A DNA stretch of 22,485 nt from positions 1 to 22,485 of IMG/VR virus record IMGVR_UViG_3300026278_000005. The stretch is one strand, 5' to 3'. Shown piece after piece: positions 10 to 10,347 of this stretch (within the stretch, counting starts at the first letter, position 1; each line of letters opens with the position of its first letter). The notes beneath the pieces were generated by a model. The model was not told where the DNA came from. It ran no database searches and saw only the letters and a list, made by a program, of their open reading frames with translations. The translations under genes and the position numbers were made by a program. This DNA comes from a virus.

Positions 10-1494
10 ATGACCACCTTGCATACAATGCTCAAGACCGAACTACGAGCGATGAATGACGTTCTGTTCTTCGTAGAGAATGAGCATTTGCTAAATGCAC
101 CGTGGCTTTGGCCGAAGCAGAAGCAGAGCTTACAAGAGTTCTATGACCCTAAAAAACAGTATCAAGACATGATTCTCATTTGGGGAATGAGAGCCGGTAA
201 AACGACAGTAGCTTCCGTGATTGCCTGCTATGAGGCCTTTAAGCTCATCAACACGGGGTATCCTTGCAGGAAGTACGGCCTTCCCAGAGGGACTGAGATT
301 TTCATTATCAACGTAGCCACCAGCGATAGGCAAGCGAGAGACACGGTTTTCGCTCACACGAAAGCTAGGATTGATAGCTCACCGTGGTTCCAAAACCAGG
401 AGTACGTTGAGCACTTTAATGAGTTTATTTTCCCTGTGAGGGATGGCAAAATCATCATACGATCGGAGCACAGCAACAGTGCCTCACTGGCAGGTAAGAC
501 AGTAATAGCGGTAGTATTTGATGAGCTCTCGCGATTTAAGGATACTGGAGGAAACGCTTCCGCGGAAATGGTTTACGATACCTTGAGCAGGTCTGTAAAG
601 ACCTTCGGGAAGGATGGGAAGAGGGTGGTTATCACCAGTCCTATGTATAATGATGACTATGCGATGAGGCTTTTCAGGACGTACAGGGATAATCCGCGCT
701 GGTACTGCAGAAGGTATCCGACATGGGAAGTGAATCCTACGATTACGTTCGAAAGCCTCGAGGATGAGTTTACCAAGGACCCTGAGACTGCGTGGCGTGA
801 CTATGGAGCAACGCCGACAAGCTCACTGGAGGTCTACTTCAAGGAATCAGACCGCTTAGAGTTGTGTCTAGATGTCAACAGACCGAATCCAGTGAATACT
901 GATATGGTGTCTCCCGCGGAACAGCTGAAAGCGTTTCAAGGGATTCCTGGAGTTCCGTACACACTTGCAGGTGACCCGGCTCTTAAGAATGACGCCTTCG
1001 GGCTTGCACTCGTACACCATGGGCAGGGGGATGTAATTATCTGCGATTTATTACATAGGTTCACGCCGTTTAACACAAGAGAAGAAGGGGATGAAAGTAA
1101 AACTTCACATGAGGTGAATGCATCCTTCGTAAGGGAGTTTGTCCATGAGCTCAATAGGCGGTGCTGGATTGAGACATTCGTTACGGACACGTGGCAATTC
1201 CCTGAGACGATTCAGAGCATCAGATCAGAGGGAATTAATGTCATGCAGAACCATGTCACTAAGGAAGAGTATGATAAGCTGAAGGAGCTGTTTTACACTC
1301 ACAGGATAACGTTGCCCAACTATCCGTTCGTAATCGATGAGCTTAAGTCTCTTGAACTCAGGCGGGGACAAAGGGTTGACCACCCAAGGGGCGGATCGAA
1401 GGATGTCGCCGATGCACTTGCAAATGCGGTATGGGCAGCATCAAATAGCGAAGTAAGGTCCGAGGAGCCTGTAGCAGTAACATTCAGGATGTGA
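10..1494 (+). CDS. terL: Terminase large subunit (ATPase-nuclease DNA packaging motor)
   Basis: This is the motor that drives DNA into the prohead through the portal and cuts the concatemer. The N-terminal ATPase shows a Walker A motif GMRAGKT at residues 59-65 and a Walker B VVFDE at 168-172. A coupling-type motif VVITSP follows at 206-211. The C-terminal RNase H-like nuclease keeps its acidic residues: D322 in LAGDPALKND, D393 in FVTDT, and D465/D468 in KDVADAL. At 494 residues it has normal length for the family. The frame stays open to the left edge, so the start could lie further upstream; ATG at 10 is the first start in the window and its ribosome site cannot be judged. A small terminase is not in view. 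The portal gene follows after 4 bases, as expected. Motifs are seen; the role is family knowledge. Confidence 0.95.
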   Translation: MTTLHTMLKTELRAMNDVLFFVENEHLLNAPWLWPKQKQSLQEFYDPKKQYQDMILIWGMRAGKTTVASVIACYEAFKLINTGYPCRKYGLPRGTEIFIINVATSDRQARDTVFAHTKARIDSSPWFQNQEYVEHFNEFIFPVRDGKIIIRSEHSNSASLAGKTVIAVVFDELSRFKDTGGNASAEMVYDTLSRSVKTFGKDGKRVVITSPMYNDDYAMRLFRTYRDNPRWYCRRYPTWEVNPTITFESLEDEFTKDPETAWRDYGATPTSSLEVYFKESDRLELCLDVNRPNPVNTDMVSPAEQLKAFQGIPGVPYTLAGDPALKNDAFGLALVHHGQGDVIICDLLHRFTPFNTREEGDESKTSHEVNASFVREFVHELNRRCWIETFVTDTWQFPETIQSIRSEGINVMQNHVTKEEYDKLKELFYTHRITLPNYPFVIDELKSLELRRGQRVDHPRGGSKDVADALANAVWAASNSEVRSEEPVAVTFRM

Positions 1495-1498
1495 GATT

Positions 1499-2806
1499 GT
1501 GGATTTCTTTAATACGAAAAAGGTCAGAAAACTTGAGAGAAAGGTCAGAGACCTGCAGGTAAAGACAGCAGAGAAGAAGGAGCTGTCTGCCGTGCTTTAC
1601 GGGAGTGTCCTCTACTCCGAGGACTGGCTAGACGCTTTGCAGAATGACCTTACGGTCTCTGGACCCTGGGATGCCTACAAGAAGGTTTCCCTCGTGACTC
1701 AGTGCATAAATGCCACATCACATTACGCAACAAGGAAGGGCTTTAGAACAGCGATAGAGGTTAATACCCCGCAAGCGCAAGAGATTTTGAGCAAAATCAA
1801 CAATATCAATAGAAAGGTGAACTTGGATAACATAATCGCTATGGCGATTATCAAGAGGGAAATAACAGGGAGGGCTGCGTTCGAGATTGTAAAGGACGGC
1901 AATGGACAGATAGTTGCGCTACTACCTTTAAGCTCAGAAGCTATTACTCCCCACCTTGATGAGGAAACGCAAATGATCGACTATTTCGAGTACACAAGCG
2001 CAAAGAACGGACGGTTAGAGGTAGAGGACGTCTTGTACTTCCCTAGGATGCCATTCGGAAGGGACATGCGCGGTGAAAGTGCGATAAGTCCTATAATGAA
2101 TGTCGTGAAGCTCAAATTAGAGTTGTATAAGGACCTGCTAGAAAGTGCAAAACGACTTTGGGGGCCTATGGGTCTTTTCCAGATGGATACCACCGATATA
2201 AGGGATCCTGCTAAGAAAGAGGAGAGAATGAATGCCTTCGCAAACAAGCTTAAGCCCGGCAGAAGCATCGTGTACAATAAGGCCATAGAGGCTAAGGTGA
2301 TTGATCTTAAGCCCGACATCATGGGACTAGTACGCGCGATCGAGAAGGCAGACGAGGAGATAATGGGCAACTGGCAGATGCCTAAAGCTATCTTTGCTAG
2401 GGAGAAAACTGTTACGAAGGCAACACTCTCTGCAGCCTTAGATGCACTATACGAGGGACCGATTGAGAGCGTACAGAGGTTCTTTAAGCGCGAAATCGAG
2501 AGGCAGTGGTACGATAGGATTGTAAGGAACGAGCTTAAGATGGACCCGGAGGTATATGCAGTAAAACACCTATGGAATCCTGTCACAAGACCCGATGCCG
2601 ACCTGATTCGGGCCCTAGCTTACTCTGTAAGGGTTGGTGCAATGACTAAGGAGGAATTCTTCGCGATCATGGGGTGGCAAGTTATGACGCCTACGAATGC
2701 ATCGCCACCCGTTCAAGAGGTGAAATCTCCTACGGATATCGAGGATGTAATTGCCGAAATACAGGAGATGAAGAAGGAGCCAAAAGAATTTCCAGAGGAG
2801 GAATAA
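1499..2806 (+). CDS. Portal protein
   Basis: The portal forms the dodecameric ring at one capsid vertex, through which DNA is pumped by the terminase and to which the neck and tail attach. The 435-residue protein starts with GTG, 4 bases after the terminase stop. Residues 1-25 are a charged helix. The rest fits a phage portal: an N-terminal wing, the segment ITGRAAFEIV (about 121-130), then VEDVLYFPRMPF and RGESAISPI near 176-200. Long helices rich in K/E/R follow (stem and crown). The C-terminus from about 405 is acidic and probably disordered (EIQEMKKEPKEFPEEE). Position between terminase and prohead protease agrees. I recognise it by pattern and context; the exact portal family is not assigned. 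Confidence 0.9.
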   Translation: MDFFNTKKVRKLERKVRDLQVKTAEKKELSAVLYGSVLYSEDWLDALQNDLTVSGPWDAYKKVSLVTQCINATSHYATRKGFRTAIEVNTPQAQEILSKINNINRKVNLDNIIAMAIIKREITGRAAFEIVKDGNGQIVALLPLSSEAITPHLDEETQMIDYFEYTSAKNGRLEVEDVLYFPRMPFGRDMRGESAISPIMNVVKLKLELYKDLLESAKRLWGPMGLFQMDTTDIRDPAKKEERMNAFANKLKPGRSIVYNKAIEAKVIDLKPDIMGLVRAIEKADEEIMGNWQMPKAIFAREKTVTKATLSAALDALYEGPIESVQRFFKREIERQWYDRIVRNELKMDPEVYAVKHLWNPVTRPDADLIRALAYSVRVGAMTKEEFFAIMGWQVMTPTNASPPVQEVKSPTDIEDVIAEIQEMKKEPKEFPEEE

Positions 2807-3079: not shown

Positions 3080-6000
3080 ATGCCATTCTATAAAGGGCGT
3101 AACTGGAAGAACCTTCCTGACCAAGAGCTCGTCTGGGCTCACTTTCAATGTCACCGCGCTTACGGGACGTACTTAAGATACGGGAAGTATCATGATGAAA
3201 AGAACAATTCCTGGTCGTTGGAAGACTTTTACAACCAGCATAAGCTGATATGGCAGGAAATGAAAAGACGGGGTATGAATGTAGACCCGAACGATGAACT
3301 GCTGAAGATTGGACCACGAACTCATGAAGATTGGAGCTCTATTCACTCAGGCAATATTACTCAAGATGAGATAGAGCGATGCGTAAAGGACCCTAAGTGG
3401 CAGGCGTTCAGAGAGTCTTTAAAAGGATTGCCTTTAGGAGAGCAGTTCACAAAACTGAAGCAATGGAATAATCAAAACTCAAGATGCGCAAAAGTTCAAG
3501 TAACCAATTACATTAATGCCTTAAGACGTGGAGGATTACTGGAGGAGATTGCAATGACCAAACAGAAGAAGCTTAAGATGTTTCTGGTCGGTGCTCAAAA
3601 GAAGCCGATAGCAGACTTAGCGGATGGTGTCATGATAAGTGCCGTTCAGACTAAGTCTCGCGGTGCTCTAAGGCCTTGGATCGATAGCTATAAGGGCATG
3701 ATAGTAATGGACAATGGTATCTTTAGTAACATTGTCATGTCCGTCGAAGAGCTAGCGCAGAGGACTAGAGAGGTTGTTCCTCATGTTGTTTGTGGTCCTG
3801 ACGTATTGTTCCAGCATGACATACATATCAAGAGTATTAAGAGGCAGCAGGATTTCCTCAAGCAGAAGTTGCCTAAGGAAACCGAGGTCATGCTTATCCC
3901 TCAAGGGAACACCTGCCTGGAGTATGAGTGGTGCATAGGTGAAATCATCAAGATGAACCCTGCTTGGATTGGACTGGGTAGGATGAGCATGAAAGTCGCA
4001 GGTTACCCTGGGAAGGGACATGCGCAAAGGACGTACTGCCTGAAAAGACTAGAGGAGCTTGGACTTTTGGATAAGATCAAGAGCCAAGGTATTAAGATGC
4101 ATGCCCTCGGGGTTTCAAAGCCATTCGAGTTCAGGTACTTTAATCGCTTTGGATTCGATTCATTCGACAGTATGTCATACATTTACGCGAGCATATTTAA
4201 TCAGTTAGTTTATCCTTTGGACGCTACAGAAAGTCAGTTTGCCCTAGAGAACGGTGAGGTTAAGAGGAAGAAGGGGGAAAGTGATGAGCTTTACCAGGCC
4301 AAAGTGGAGTTTGCCAAGGGGTATCCTTGGGATAAGTCCTTAGAAGAGAGACAGGAGTGGATTATAAAGAACATTTGGCGCCCCATGATGGAGCAGTACG
4401 CTCAAGATAAGCATATTGAGAGACTGACTGGACATCTGCGGTGGGAAGACAGGGATGATACTCCAATGCTTCAGAAACCAGGCAAAGAGAAACTCAGGGA
4501 AGCTATCCAGATGGATGAAGTACTATCCCTCGAGGACCTTAAGCACATTGAAATTGAGACTCTTGACGAGGACTATGTTCGTTCGTATCATCTCATGATT
4601 CACAACGCTTTGAACAGACAGACGATAGACGAGAAACAGCCCTTCGATCCAAAGGAGTTAAAGCAGCTTCACGAGAAGGTAGTAAAGAGGATGGAAGAGC
4701 TTGGAATTGCACACCAGAGCCCTGTAGAGCTAGACGAGAAGTTTGCTCCGGTGGGCTCAAGCGGACACGTTATCGGAGAGGAAATTGTCCTGGAAGATGT
4801 ACTTAAGCACTTCGAGGACTTTAGGGTGTCGTGGCCACATGTCTATCTTACCGGCGGCATCGTTAATAGGGGCAAAACCAAGGGAGACATCGATATACTG
4901 ATTAAGAGCATCGAGAAAGACCCTATGAATGTGCCTATAATGTTTAGGATCTTGCGTATGTTACCCCCGGAGCTTGCGAACAGGGTACAGTTCTTATTTG
5001 AAGATACAACGAAGTCACATGGACATGTTCCTGGGCCATATACAAATCACATCCCACTATATGGGATTCAGATGCAGGCATTGAAGCCATTTAAGACGGT
5101 AGAGATGGCTAGGGGAATTGTGCCAATGGAGTTCTTCACTCCGCTTAAGCCAACCATTGGATATAAAGCGGGGTTTGTCTTTGGTTGGGACGCCCTAGTG
5201 GAGGTAGTGGAAGACGATATGTATCCTGTTGTCGTGCAAAAGAAGTATGATGGAGCGCGAGTTCAGATTCACAGAAAAGGTAAAGATGTAAAAATCTTCT
5301 CAGACGATGGACACCGCATCGACCATAGGATGCCTACCTTCGTGGAGGAAGTTCAAAAGTCAGAGTGGCCGGAAGAATTCGTAATTGATGCGGAATGCGA
5401 GATGTGGATAAGGGGTAAACACCAGGGACGAGAGATCGTTAGTGGCTTCCTTAGAAAGACGGACTCGCTTCAAAAGGGTGAAGACAGCTATCTTGTGCCT
5501 AATGTATTCGATATCCTCTATATCTCAGGGAAAGGCGATCTGCACGACTACTCTTTGGACGAAAGAATGAAGCATCTCGATAAGTTACCTATTAAGCAGA
5601 GCACTGATAGGGTGCCGCGTACTGGAGAGTTCAATCGTACGCCTTCCTATGTGGCACAGGACGCTAAGACGATGGTTCAGTTTGGTAAGAAGGTGGCCGA
5701 GCTTCCCGGGAGCGAGGGAGCGATGGTCAAGAGTCTCAAGAGCAGATACGAGTTGGATGGACAAACGAGTGAGTGGGTGAAGTACAAGAGGACAGTGGAA
5801 TTCGTTGTAGCTGCCATTGAGAAGTTGCCTACAAAGACGGAGGGTGTTTTTAACTATCAGATGGGCATAGTTCCAACAGGCATGGACATCGCGGAGTCAG
5901 ATATTAGGATGGTTGGTGGTAAGAAGTACGCGTACATCGGTAAGACGATGAATACGGTTTTGGATGTTGCTCTAGGGACCCCGTTACGGGTTACAGCGGA

Positions 6001-8038
6001 GAACCTATTTGTATATAAGGATAAGCTTAGGTTATATTTACCGGTGGTCATCGAAGAGAAGGTCAGCGACAAGATTTATGACGCAAAAACAACGATAGAG
6101 GTGGCTAAGGAAGCTGGACTTTTGCAGGAGAAGGAAATGCAAACATCCTGGCCGGATGAGTCAAAGACCCATAGGTTCGTTATTCAACTACACTTCCGCG
6201 GAAAGTCTGTCCATCATGACTTTAGGACTAACATTAACGGCGAACTGGAAGGGTGGACGATCTTCTCACAGCCTGCTGGCGTCGTGAAGAAGGAACCTGA
6301 ATCTATCAGTGAGGCTAAGAAGTATGAGAAATCAGTGAACTGGAAGTGGCCGAAATCAGATGTCCACGCACAAGCAGGACAGAAGGCTCGACAGCCAGTT
6401 GACTGGCTAGACGTTCAAGGTAAATTTGAGCCAGGGACCGTGGGTGCGACTAGGGAGAAAGCGGGATTCATGCTCATCGTTGACAAGGGTGAAGTTGAAT
6501 TCGGGGCTAGGAAAACGTGGTTTTATGAGTATTTCCTGCATGGAGCAAAGTTTAGTGGACGTCTGATTTTCCGCTTCATCCCAAGGGTTGGCATGGTGGC
6601 AGAAGTACAGACGGATGACAGCGATAATCACCATCATGCAGTGCACATAGGAAAGGACGGTAAGGGAAAGACTACTGTGGCAGAAAATCACTGGCATGAA
6701 GTTGAAAACTACGAAGTCAAAATGGCAAATAATCACACTCACAAGCTTCCATGGTCGAAGCTCGAGGGTGAAGAGGTTGGTTTCTGGAACTCTTGGATGC
6801 CAGAAGACCAGCTACCCTATGTGCTAACAAAGAGCGCTGTCGAAGAGAACTGGATTCCTCCTCAAGGGATTAGCGCCTTGCCGAAAGACATTAGGGACAA
6901 AATTCCCGAGAGGTATAAGTACTGGCTTAGTGCCTCTAGGGAAGAGAGAATTAGGATTAGGAACGAGTTAGTGAAGGCAAAGGACATCAAGTTCAAGGTC
7001 AAGCAGAAGTACGACTCTAAGCACTTCTTGCTAGAGAAAGATGACAAGTACTACTTGGGAACTACGACAGATTGTGAGTTGGCTGAGAATAGCACGGCAA
7101 CGTGGGCGTGCTTCGAGAGTGTAGTGGCGGTCGACCTGAAGAAAGGGTCTTTTGTCCTACAGCATCACTGGTGGAAAGGACAAGTAGTTATAAGGGCTGG
7201 TCCTTCTGTAGAACACTGGGATTTGTTTATTCTACCCGAGGGAAAGATGTACGTTCTTAACCAGAACCCCTTGGAAGGACCCTCGAGTGCTAGCATTCGG
7301 AACCCGTATTCAAAGGAGTTTTGGAAGAAGGGTACCAACGGTCCTGAGCTAATAAAACCTGGGGAGCCTGGTAACCCGACAAAGAACACACCTGCATGGA
7401 CAGAGATTGTTGACAGCGGGGAGGTTAACATACTGGAAGATGGAAACCTTTTCAAGAGGTTCAATTTCTCGGGAAAAAACCTCAAAGGAACCTACGCCAT
7501 GAAACGAGAGGATGCGGACATTAACCTCTGGGAGTTTGCCAAAGTGGAACTTCCAGGGTTGCAGAAAACCTTAGAAAAGGGCGAGTGTCTTAAGCAGCAG
7601 TCCATGTACTTGTCTATCGAAAAGTTCGGAAGGTACGGGGACAAGTACGTTGTAGTTGGTAGTGCACTCTCATATGGGGTTTGGAACGGTGATTGGTACT
7701 CTCCTGAGGTTTTGGATGATAGGCCAGAGCGAGTCCTAGGAATCCCTGTCGGTGTTGGAAGTCACAAAGACAAGACTAACCATGGGAGGGTTATCGATTA
7801 CGAGTATGATAAGGAGAAGCACACAATCAAGATTGCAGTTGAAATTGATACTCCGGAAAAACAGCTTGAAATCGAGAATGGAGACTATACAGGCTTTAGC
7901 GTTGAAATCACTGTCCTTAGCTGTGATGTACGTCATATCATTGAGAAGATTGTCAGTTATGACAGAGTATGCATAGTTAAGAATCCTGCTTGTGAGGTGT
8001 GCACAATTGAACGAGTTGAAGGGAAAGCATCTAGTTAA
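3080..8038 (+). CDS. Multi-enzyme polyprotein: TGT/DpdA-like, nucleotidyltransferase, ATP-dependent DNA ligase, LigD phosphoesterase-like (x2) and XkdF/S78 prohead protease
   Basis: A 1652-residue frame in the place of the prohead protease. Domains seen: helical HxxxH domain (16-76). TGT/DpdA-like barrel (165-385) with MDNGIF (D211), PQGN (Q275) and GFDSFDS (D360, D363), without the Cys zinc cluster of tRNA enzymes. Second HxxxH domain (499-553). Nucleotidyltransferase fold (570-680) with GG 592-593 and DID 603-605. Ligase core (685-1000) with KYDG (K722 adenylation site), motif III-like VIDAE, motif IIIa VFDILY, EGAMVK (E879) and WVKYK, without the N-terminal DNA-binding domain of archaeal ligases. 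Phosphoesterase-like domain 1 (1030-1170) with H1038, H1045, D1047, R1049. Triple HxH module (1183-1222). Divergent phosphoesterase-like domain 2 (1300-1490) with HWD 1379-1381. Protease (1505-1648) with GSHKD (H1562) and GFSVE (S1607). The protease probably processes itself and scaffold; release of the enzymes is inference. Confidence 0.9.
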   Translation: MPFYKGRNWKNLPDQELVWAHFQCHRAYGTYLRYGKYHDEKNNSWSLEDFYNQHKLIWQEMKRRGMNVDPNDELLKIGPRTHEDWSSIHSGNITQDEIERCVKDPKWQAFRESLKGLPLGEQFTKLKQWNNQNSRCAKVQVTNYINALRRGGLLEEIAMTKQKKLKMFLVGAQKKPIADLADGVMISAVQTKSRGALRPWIDSYKGMIVMDNGIFSNIVMSVEELAQRTREVVPHVVCGPDVLFQHDIHIKSIKRQQDFLKQKLPKETEVMLIPQGNTCLEYEWCIGEIIKMNPAWIGLGRMSMKVAGYPGKGHAQRTYCLKRLEELGLLDKIKSQGIKMHALGVSKPFEFRYFNRFGFDSFDSMSYIYASIFNQLVYPLDATESQFALENGEVKRKKGESDELYQAKVEFAKGYPWDKSLEERQEWIIKNIWRPMMEQYAQDKHIERLTGHLRWEDRDDTPMLQKPGKEKLREAIQMDEVLSLEDLKHIEIETLDEDYVRSYHLMIHNALNRQTIDEKQPFDPKELKQLHEKVVKRMEELGIAHQSPVELDEKFAPVGSSGHVIGEEIVLEDVLKHFEDFRVSWPHVYLTGGIVNRGKTKGDIDILIKSIEKDPMNVPIMFRILRMLPPELANRVQFLFEDTTKSHGHVPGPYTNHIPLYGIQMQALKPFKTVEMARGIVPMEFFTPLKPTIGYKAGFVFGWDALVEVVEDDMYPVVVQKKYDGARVQIHRKGKDVKIFSDDGHRIDHRMPTFVEEVQKSEWPEEFVIDAECEMWIRGKHQGREIVSGFLRKTDSLQKGEDSYLVPNVFDILYISGKGDLHDYSLDERMKHLDKLPIKQSTDRVPRTGEFNRTPSYVAQDAKTMVQFGKKVAELPGSEGAMVKSLKSRYELDGQTSEWVKYKRTVEFVVAAIEKLPTKTEGVFNYQMGIVPTGMDIAESDIRMVGGKKYAYIGKTMNTVLDVALGTPLRVTAENLFVYKDKLRLYLPVVIEEKVSDKIYDAKTTIEVAKEAGLLQEKEMQTSWPDESKTHRFVIQLHFRGKSVHHDFRTNINGELEGWTIFSQPAGVVKKEPESISEAKKYEKSVNWKWPKSDVHAQAGQKARQPVDWLDVQGKFEPGTVGATREKAGFMLIVDKGEVEFGARKTWFYEYFLHGAKFSGRLIFRFIPRVGMVAEVQTDDSDNHHHAVHIGKDGKGKTTVAENHWHEVENYEVKMANNHTHKLPWSKLEGEEVGFWNSWMPEDQLPYVLTKSAVEENWIPPQGISALPKDIRDKIPERYKYWLSASREERIRIRNELVKAKDIKFKVKQKYDSKHFLLEKDDKYYLGTTTDCELAENSTATWACFESVVAVDLKKGSFVLQHHWWKGQVVIRAGPSVEHWDLFILPEGKMYVLNQNPLEGPSSASIRNPYSKEFWKKGTNGPELIKPGEPGNPTKNTPAWTEIVDSGEVNILEDGNLFKRFNFSGKNLKGTYAMKREDADINLWEFAKVELPGLQKTLEKGECLKQQSMYLSIEKFGRYGDKYVVVGSALSYGVWNGDWYSPEVLDDRPERVLGIPVGVGSHKDKTNHGRVIDYEYDKEKHTIKIAVEIDTPEKQLEIENGDYTGFSVEITVLSCDVRHIIEKIVSYDRVCIVKNPACEVCTIERVEGKASS
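3541..3556 (+). promoter_or_regulatory. Internal Shine-Dalgarno and in-frame ATG within the polyprotein
   Basis: GGAGGAG at 3541-3547 lies 6 bases before ATG 3554, which is codon 159 of the giant frame. This is one of the best ribosome sites in the window, and better than the one before ATG 3080 (GAGAGG only 3 bases away). The start sits just in front of the TGT/DpdA-like domain. It could give a second product of 1494 residues lacking the first helical domain. GGAGGAG also encodes in-frame residues of an acidic helix (LLEE), so chance is possible. Confidence 0.45.
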
Positions 8039-8408
8039 GCGTGCGACCGTCGGTATCTCGGTCAATCGCAGACCCAAGATGCGGTTTGGTATTAAGCTCT
8101 TACCATACGTAGAGATTTATGGGAAAATCGACGAGCTCGAGAGTCTTAAGGCAGAGCTCCTCAATTATTCTATCGGAAGCACCCTCAGGAAGAAGTCCCT
8201 ACGTATTCAGGGAATCGAAAACTGCTCTGTAATGACGAGATTTTTGAATAAAGAGAAATACTCCTGGTGGTTTGAGTGCATAGAGATGTTTGTTGAGGGG
8301 AAGCATCTCACTAGAAAGGGGATTAAAGAAATCCTTGACAAGAGGCCTCGTATTAGAAACCAGGGGCTAAGGCTTCGTGATGAAGACATCTTGAACGCCC
8401 TTTCATGA
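8007..8408 (+). CDS. LAGLIDADG-endonuclease-like protein lacking the motif (possible remnant)
   Basis: The frame overlaps the end of the protease in another phase. I choose TTG 8007 because GAGGTG (7994-7999) lies 7 bases ahead; an upstream GTG at 7992 is also in frame. About 133 residues. The layout fits the body of a LAGLIDADG homing endonuclease domain: a beta pair (ATVGISVNRRPKMRFGIKL), a helix DELESLKAELL, the segment IGSTLRKKSLRIQGIEN, then WWFECIEMFVEGKHLT and a helix beginning RKGIKEIL. The LAGLIDADG helix that should precede TVGISV is not recognisable; the residues there (LKGKHLVKR) are basic and lack the catalytic acid. It is therefore either a decayed endonuclease or a non-catalytic DNA-binding derivative. 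The family call is tentative and rests on pattern only. Confidence 0.45.
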   Translation: MNELKGKHLVKRATVGISVNRRPKMRFGIKLLPYVEIYGKIDELESLKAELLNYSIGSTLRKKSLRIQGIENCSVMTRFLNKEKYSWWFECIEMFVEGKHLTRKGIKEILDKRPRIRNQGLRLRDEDILNALS

Positions 8409-9125: not shown

Positions 9126-9521
9126 ATGACGAAGACCGAGATAATGCAGACAAGCGATATGTACGTGATCAAAGCGAAGAGCAAGACTACGACAGCAGTC
9201 ACTGCTAAGCGCTTCCACGTATTCGACACAAGTGGTTGGGCACAAGCAGGCGCAGGTGCACGGGGACCTCATGGAGTGCCGGTGGAGTCTGTCGCGGCTC
9301 CAGCGTCCGGACAGTCGGACATCGAGATACTTCTGGAGGGTACGTGCAAAGTAGAGAAGGCTGCAGGTGCTCTGAACCAGGGTACTTACGTCAAGTCGGA
9401 CGCAAACGGCAAGGCCGTTGCTTGGGTGGGCGGTGTCGATGAGCTGGAGATTGCCGCCGGCGTGGTTGTTGAGGACGCAGCCAATGACGACACCGAAGTG
9501 ATGATAAAGCTCATAAAGTGA
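9126..9521 (+). CDS. Capsid decoration protein, DUF2190-like
   Basis: A 131-residue, beta-rich protein made mostly of small residues. After a short N-terminus there is a stretch AKSKTTTAVTAKRFHVFDTS, then repeats of G, A, V and D. The middle segment LEGTCKVEKAAG-LNQGTYVK and the end AAGVVVEDAANDDTEVMIKL match the pattern of DUF2190 capsid decoration/cement proteins, which stabilise the outer surface of expanded heads. ATG 9126 has GGTGAG ahead of it and begins one base after the scaffold stop. The gene directly precedes the major capsid protein, as usual for this family. Codons are richer in G/C than in the baseplate genes, in keeping with high expression. Confidence 0.75.
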   Translation: MTKTEIMQTSDMYVIKAKSKTTTAVTAKRFHVFDTSGWAQAGAGARGPHGVPVESVAAPASGQSDIEILLEGTCKVEKAAGALNQGTYVKSDANGKAVAWVGGVDELEIAAGVVVEDAANDDTEVMIKLIK

Positions 9522-9531
9522 GGTGACTAAA

Positions 9532-10347
9532 ATGCCAGGCATAGTAATCGATAGTGACATCACAGATGGGATGAAGGCTGAGGTCATCGTCGAAGAGATT
9601 CTAGGGCTTGCCCATCCGAAGTATAACCTCAGGCCGTTCTGCAGGGTTATCGATACCGGGACCAAGAGGTCTGGAAAGTGGCCGGTAGCTACCAAGCTGG
9701 CTGGTCACGAGAAGGTTCCGCCTCTCGTCGAAGCTCCTCTGAGTGCTCAGGCCTACCAGGACCTGGACTTCGAGGAGTGGAAGAACGTTGTCCATGTGGC
9801 TATCAGCAAGGAAGCCGAGATGGACAGCAAAGTCGACATCATGCGGATGAACATCAAGGATGCTGCGCGTGACCTCGCTAGGATGGAGAACAAACAGATA
9901 GCTGAGGAGTTCGCGAAGTTCACTGACGTCGCTGGTGGAGACTGGACGGGGACGGACAACCCGATGGACGACATAATGCCTGTGGTTGCAACTATCCAGG
10001 ACCTTGGGTATGATCCGAATGCAATCGTGATGCAGTCCCAGGTCTACGCTTACTTCCTTGCGAACGAGAACATTAAGGAAGTCTACGAGCGTGGAGCTAC
10101 TGTTGCGAGGGGCGGCATCGAGATGCTAGGGAACCTGAGGGTTGGTACGGAGTCAGCGTTGGCTTCGGAAACCGCGGTCATCCTGGACACGGAAGCACCG
10201 GCATGCACTCTGTTCGACGGTCCGAGCGTAGTCGAGAGGTATTCGATGCAGGCGAAATTCGCGATGGGGTACGCTATCGCGAAGTTCCTGCAGCCGATGA
10301 AGACCCTCGATGATGCGGCTCGCGAGCTGACTGGCCTACTGTCGTAA
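9532..10347 (+). CDS. Major capsid protein, HK97 fold
   Basis: The main shell protein of the icosahedral head. ATG 9532 is chosen because GAGGTGA (9520-9526) lies 5 bases ahead; the in-frame GTG at 9523 is part of that ribosome site. The product has 271 residues, at the short end for HK97-type capsid proteins. Features that fit are an N-terminal arm, the spine-helix region (DIMRMNIKDAARDLARMENK, about 104-123), the P-domain segment VVATIQDLGYDPNAIVM with the helix SQVYAYFLANEN, and a C-terminal segment LDTEAPACTLFDG-PSVVERYSMQ. There is no long N-terminal coiled-coil delta domain, which agrees with a separate scaffold gene upstream. Codons are G/C-rich compared with neighbours, as expected for the most abundant virion protein. 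Confidence 0.88.
   Translation: MPGIVIDSDITDGMKAEVIVEEILGLAHPKYNLRPFCRVIDTGTKRSGKWPVATKLAGHEKVPPLVEAPLSAQAYQDLDFEEWKNVVHVAISKEAEMDSKVDIMRMNIKDAARDLARMENKQIAEEFAKFTDVAGGDWTGTDNPMDDIMPVVATIQDLGYDPNAIVMQSQVYAYFLANENIKEVYERGATVARGGIEMLGNLRVGTESALASETAVILDTEAPACTLFDGPSVVERYSMQAKFAMGYAIAKFLQPMKTLDDAARELTGLLS

Follow-up and report, generated by a model that had tools for sequence, protein, structure and literature searches.

A tailed-virus polyprotein joining DNA-modifying, end-cleaning and sealing domains to a capsid maturation protease

A single giant protein of a tailed virus, whose host is probably archaeal, joins DNA-modifying, end-cleaning and sealing enzymes to a capsid-maturing protease. It is encoded in the window, the whole stretch of 22,485 bases that was analysed and a complete IMG/VR record, where one reading frame of 1652 amino acids (3080-8038, plus strand) holds all of the domains named in the original prediction, which had read the region 4787-6589 as a nucleotidyltransferase (NTase), ligase and phosphoesterase (PE) in an order recalling LigD of bacterial end joining. 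The residues singled out there (G592-G593, D603-I604-D605, K722, H1038, H1045, D1047 and R1049) all lie at the positions given for them. That cassette is the middle of a larger polyprotein whose capsid protease and DpdA-like domains had been missed, and their presence in the same protein changes its likely role. A module that mends and modifies virus DNA in or from the head fits better than end joining.

Architecture and genomic position of the polyprotein

The features of the window are collected in Table 1. The protein is identical in L001 and 72% identical in L002; a 41-kb record (L104, G001:C1) that contains and extends the window's sequence encodes the identical protein, and a 28-kb record the relative at 72% identity. 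The protein of ANMV-1 (AJP62006) shares 28.6% identity with the window protein across residues 552-1489. A helical domain related to the N-terminal region is found again ahead of the NTase. A 138-aa ORF in another frame (window 7992-8408) overlaps the end of the polyprotein and is conserved in L002 (E 8.8e-61).

Table 1 Features of the window and the basis of their assignment
Feature	Position	Strand	Basis or remarks
Terminase large subunit	10..1494	+	
Portal protein	1499..2806	+	
Polyprotein ORF	3080..8038	+	[helical]-TGT/DpdA-like-[helical]-NTase-ligase-OB-PE1-helical-PE2-capsid protease
N-terminal helical region, aa 10-73	3107..3298	+	Weak Pyr_excise-like match (Pfam PF03013, E 0.0008, below cut-off); iterative HMM
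TGT/DpdA-like domain, aa 161-470, predicted 7-deazaguanine DNA transglycosylase	3560..4489	+	phrog_887, E 2e-4
Helical HxxxxxEMxxRG-type domain ahead of NTase, aa 487-552	4538..4735	+	
Pol-beta-superfamily-like NTase, aa 566-666	4775..5077	+	GG 592-593, DID 603-605; third acidic position is Gly662
ATP-dependent DNA ligase adenylation domain, aa 716-905, nucleophile K722	5225..5794	+	Pfam PF01068, E 2.8e-24; conserved motifs
Conserved region after ligase, presumed OB fold, aa 906-1000	5795..6079	+	Conserved in 42/45 loci; OB identity inferred from position
LigD-type 3'-phosphoesterase fold PE1, aa 1030-1243	6167..6808	+	Profile, predicted structure, conserved residues
Second PE-like domain PE2, aa 1357-1484	7148..7531	+	HHalign to cellular PE 96.6%, E 5e-10
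Capsid maturation protease domain, aa 1506-1652	7595..8035	+	T4 gp21 fold; candidate catalytic residues H1562 and S1607, from the sequence
Head scaffold/decoration-like protein	9126..9521	+	
Major capsid protein	9523..10347	+	

The protease domain, formed by the last 140 residues, matches T4 gp21 (5jbl) with Z 13.2 and an rmsd of 2.9 over 133 residues, and the herpesvirus assemblins with Z of about 6. Pfam XkdF (PF14550) was found at the same protein end in 11 of 29 relatives scanned (best 4.2e-32), and in L046 and L047 the protease domain is matched by a separate downstream gene. Gene order in the window runs from terminase and portal through an 89-aa gene to the polyprotein, and on to head genes, the major capsid protein and contractile tail genes. 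Wherever flanks are informative, the family gene follows terminase, portal and MuF genes and precedes scaffold and capsid genes, and replication genes of the same virus lie far from it. Both fold and genomic position are shared with T4 gp21 and XkdF-type prohead proteases, to which the window protein adds an N-terminal chain of DNA enzymes. Being multi-domain and encoded beside portal/MuF genes, the protein is of the kind described as polyvalent.

Conservation of the ligase, nucleotidyltransferase and phosphoesterase domains

Relatives were collected with an alignment of three of them, ANMV-1 included, as query, which retrieved 48 virus loci; conservation was counted over 45 non-redundant loci, and domain order across the family was derived with iterated domain HMMs. 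The recurring order is a helical domain, NTase, ligase, OB-like region, PE1, a helical stretch, PE2 and, in some members, PE3. The NTase lies inside the ligase gene in 35 of the 45 loci, and in seven of the other ten a separate NTase gene precedes the ligase gene by a few kb; of the last three loci, two have a short upstream sequence. All 32 loci with the three domains keep the order NTase, ligase, PE (in one ORF in 22 of these), and several relatives have two adjoining genes with the break between OB and PE1. The predicted motifs hold up well in relatives, as GG/GS...DxD of the NTase, K722, D724, G725, E772, D811, E879, G880, K884 and K901 of the ligase and the H/H/D/R set of the PE are nearly invariant across the 45 loci. 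Inteins favour conserved functional sites, and the independent inteins of family ORFs, which interrupt ligase motif I in L050, the NTase GP motif in L033 and L041 and the PE1 xP..W motif in L024, were therefore counted as support. In the phage collection, ANMV-1 was the sole relative found. A scan of genome contigs gave no match with the single window protein as query; with the family alignment it gave seven MAG contigs, of which all but one, a Planctomycetota contig, have archaeal labels. The authors of ANMV-1 name anaerobic methanotrophic archaea as its hosts (PMC4372165), and from this assignment and the six archaeal MAG matches an archaeal host for the window's virus is likely.

The ATP ligase is the sole strong Pfam match on the protein, LigD_N being weak (E 0.0016 with the region cut out). 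Its nucleophile lies in the motif QKKYDG, the nucleotidyl transfer motifs are intact and their residues are kept in 43 of 45 loci. The absence of an N-terminal ligase DNA-binding domain, as predicted, was borne out by the Pfam search, and the nearest solved ligases are archaeal replicative DNA ligases.

The NTase had been called Pol-beta-type, and its signature stands: the hG[GS]...DhDh motif of Pol beta and family X is present (G592 in 34/35, D603 in 34/35, D605 in 35/35), and the longer form G[GS]-x8-[GH]DhDh is nearly invariant in the family. In HHalign comparisons the NTase profile matched archaeal PolX at 57% and minimal MNT NTases at 60%, and no unrelated control exceeded 0.13%, but the alignments to PolX and MNT span the GG...DxD hairpin only and so do not settle the subfamily or polymerase activity. 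A predicted model (pLDDT 77.6) gave no significant match to PDB or viral models in Foldseek and VIA-align searches, MNT chains being among the top weak matches, so that the fold is not confirmed by structure. Profile A3 gave no credible match among PDB sequences. A third putative catalytic carboxylate, assigned by alignment rather than structure, is Asp at position 662 in 23 of 33 relatives, L016 and L025 among them; the window protein and L002 have Gly, and the two-gene clade has Arg, Lys or Ser. Gap filling may therefore be lost in the window NTase. With PolX and MNT near-equal over the hairpin, no thumb domain family matched in the Pfam scan and Gly at 662, the label of polymerase is unproven.

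The claim of a LigD-type phosphoesterase was right as to fold. The family PE profile matches solved LigD PE structures (3p43, 1.3e-8; 3p4h, 7.4e-6), and an AlphaFold2 model (mean pLDDT 74.7) superposes on LigD PE structures with Z from 16.5 to 11.1 (16.5 for 3p43, 16.1 for 3p4h and 14.4 for 3n9b). The metal ligands and arginine of LigD (His42, His48, Asp50 and Arg52) correspond to H1038, H1045, D1047 and R1049, kept in 33, 39, 39 and 38 of 41 in the family, respectively. Two further residues, His84 and Tyr88, are essential in P. aeruginosa LigD (PMC8656161), and their equivalents in PE1 are substituted by Q1105 and W1109; position 1105 is Gln in 21/41 and Glu in 16/41, and position 1109 is Trp in all 41. 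The 3'-end healing activity of PE1 may therefore be altered or lost. In PE2, the catalytic residues are mostly absent across the family. PE1 also contains a His-rich insert (about residues 1168-1233, window 6584-6778) with three NHxH repeats, DNHHHAV, ENHWHEV and NNHTHKL, which is 57% identical to L002 compared to 72% for the remainder of PE1 and is possibly a metal-binding element.

DNA modification and repair genes

The TGT/DpdA-like domain falls below the cut-off of the DpdA family NF041059 (E 0.003, 16.6 bits against a cut-off of 200). HHalign gave 70% to DpdA and 80% to archaeal TGT, with controls below 1%, and a search of PDB sequences with its profile gave no credible match. In L007, L017 and L025, this domain is a separate gene upstream of the ligase gene. 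The 41-kb record holds a complete preQ0 cluster (L104:13652-17466) of QueD, a QueE-like radical SAM protein, FolE2 and QueC, interspersed with UDG and a phosphoribosyltransferase gene and with dUTPase, RNR and PolB nearby; the virus probably makes 7-deazaguanine DNA. Phage DpdA likewise has TGT-like motifs and is accompanied by preQ0 biosynthesis genes of the same virus; the window domain differs from it by its divergence, with scores far under the family thresholds, and by being part of a polyprotein of the capsid module. The same record also carries a 627-aa intein-containing ORF on the minus strand (L104:959-2839).

UDG is fused into the polyprotein in four scanned relatives and is located between ligase and PE in L031 and L037. 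Other domains fused to the same core in relatives are D12 and C5 DNA methyltransferases, metallo-beta-lactamase and LigT. In L008 (6327-10835), a metallo-beta-lactamase-fold domain, possibly a nuclease, stands at the polyprotein N-terminus.

Functional readings and relation to known systems

The reading that we put forward, and hold to be about evenly balanced between right and wrong, is that of a capsid-tethered polyprotein that cleans and seals the modified DNA of tailed, probably archaeal, viruses. It is favoured because ligase, PE, an optional UDG and base-modifying enzymes are joined to a capsid protease. Sequence or fold establishes the ligase, the folds of PE and protease, the place of the gene and the way in which the modules are conserved and occur together. 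We infer that the polyprotein is packaged in the virion and cut there: it would be made alongside the head genes, and its C-terminal maturation protease would carry it into the procapsid and then presumably free the enzymes by cleavage inside the head. Ligase, PE and NTase may then mend nicks, short gaps or damaged 3' ends of what would be the virus's own DNA. This could happen while the genome is packaged, afterwards or immediately upon entry, in a pathway probably resembling single-strand-break or base-excision repair, and the N-terminal slot would accommodate DNA-modifying enzymes, DpdA-like here and methyltransferases in relatives. An enzyme known to be packaged in the head and injected is T4 Alt, and packaging is predicted for polyvalent proteins of this kind (PMC5512222). 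Against this reading stand the third carboxylate missing from the window NTase and the His84 and Tyr88 equivalents missing from PE1; further, no AP endonuclease was identified in the polyprotein, and the UDG fusion is confined to a minority of relatives. A wider formulation, in which a Ku-independent end-healing and joining holoenzyme of LigD-independent origin, with a Pol-beta-type NTase, is assembled via the capsid protease and delivered in the virion with the genome to modify, repair and circularise it, is in our estimate rather doubtful.

Bacterial LigD combines a polymerase, an ATP ligase and a 3'-phosphoesterase, and a LigD-like role for the polyprotein, for example in circularising the incoming linear genome with the NTase as polymerase, either free of Ku or with an unrecognised end-binding partner, appears unlikely. 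In its favour are the three activities of LigD in one chain, the true LigD PE fold and the conserved order, and a precedent exists in mycobacteriophages, where phage-encoded Ku is used in genome circularisation. Against it, the PE departs from LigD at the His84 and Tyr88 positions, and the NTase has lost its third Asp in the window, L002 and the two-gene clade. The original prediction had noted that no Ku gene is visible in the window, which a search confirmed, and had suggested the rest of the genome as the place to look for one; no Ku was found in 44 family virus records (1.75 Mb, 15 of them at least 40 kb and many of them fragments), in ANMV-1 or in four archaeal MAGs that contain relatives. 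One Ku search gave none in 48 records and genomes and a second none in three, an absence that is not final since the records are often fragments. The primase-like LigD POL domain (TIGR02778) was absent from the 44 family records and ANMV-1, 45 records together, and no such Pfam match occurs in the protein. With neither Ku nor the LigD polymerase found in the family records, end joining is unsupported beyond the analogy of parts, and the LigD reading is partly supported, its domain order and PE fold standing and its end-joining role not.

An injected conflict effector, whose NTase would nucleotidylate host proteins or RNAs while the other parts disable or bypass host defences, we consider quite unlikely. 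The portal-adjacent, multi-domain architecture is typical of polyvalent proteins, among which Pol-beta NTases are listed as protein-modifying (PMC5512222), and HHalign links the NTase to MNT as well as PolX. Yet the invariant core of ligase and PE acts on nucleic acid ends, DNA bases are the target of nearly all accessory domains, and DNA ligase is not reported among polyvalent domains in the main text of that study. It is also improbable that the protein is an ordinary replication or repair ligase whose fusion is simply cut apart by the protease, the head location being functionless. Ligases are encoded by many DNA viruses, and the two-gene relatives indicate that fusion to the protease is not required, but in every locus with informative flanks the gene belongs to the head module, and the replication genes of the same virus lie far away. 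Very improbable indeed is an RNA repair enzyme composed of RNA ligase, NTase and phosphoesterase; LigT/2H domains in two scanned members and weak RNA_ligase matches point that way, whereas DNA_ligase_A_M is ahead of RNA_ligase by about 20 orders of magnitude, the nearest solved relatives are archaeal replicative DNA ligases and the accessory domains act on DNA. As the ligase is clearly a DNA ligase, this role was discarded.

Compared with known systems, the parts of the polyprotein are of known families, and their assembly is a polyvalent head-module protein with a LigD-like clean-and-seal cassette, of which no description was found in the literature searched; searches on combinations of ligase, prohead protease, LigD, XkdF and ANMV-1 did not find the fusion described. 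With the LigD (POL-PE-LIG) of non-homologous end joining it shares an ATP ligase lacking an N-terminal DNA-binding domain, a PE of LigD fold and a nucleotidyl-transferring domain, but it differs in having a Pol-beta-like NTase instead of the archaeo-eukaryotic primase-fold POL, a duplicated PE, a fused capsid protease and no Ku found. The 866-aa protein of ANMV-1 (KP703175) has the order NTase-ligase-PE1-PE2 directly downstream of the portal gene; it lacks the fused TGT-like and protease domains of the window protein, and it is annotated as 'ATP-dependent DNA ligase' only. Polyvalent proteins of phages and conjugative elements likewise are large, consist of several domains, have portal/MuF genes as neighbours and are predicted to enter the particle, but the combination of ligase, PE and capsid protease is not mentioned in the main text of their description (Iyer et al. 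2017). In coupling a ligase with a gap-filling-type NTase, and in the UDG fusions of its relatives, the protein resembles Pol beta and ligase of short-patch base excision repair, from which the polyprotein differs in its minimal NTase with no thumb found, its LigD-type PE and its viral head context.

The pairing of a capsid maturation protease with DNA repair enzymes in one polypeptide is unexpected. The family offers an NTase-ligase-PE arrangement to set beside LigD, and its PE forms a subclass whose active site differs, Gln or Glu and Trp replacing His84 and Tyr88. If the fusion puts ligase, PE and DNA-modifying enzymes in heads, the particles of tailed, probably archaeal, viruses would contain a kit for repair and modification, and, if this is true, one could test how virus DNA that is modified and long-lived stays intact in anoxic sediments and hot vents and how it establishes itself on entry.
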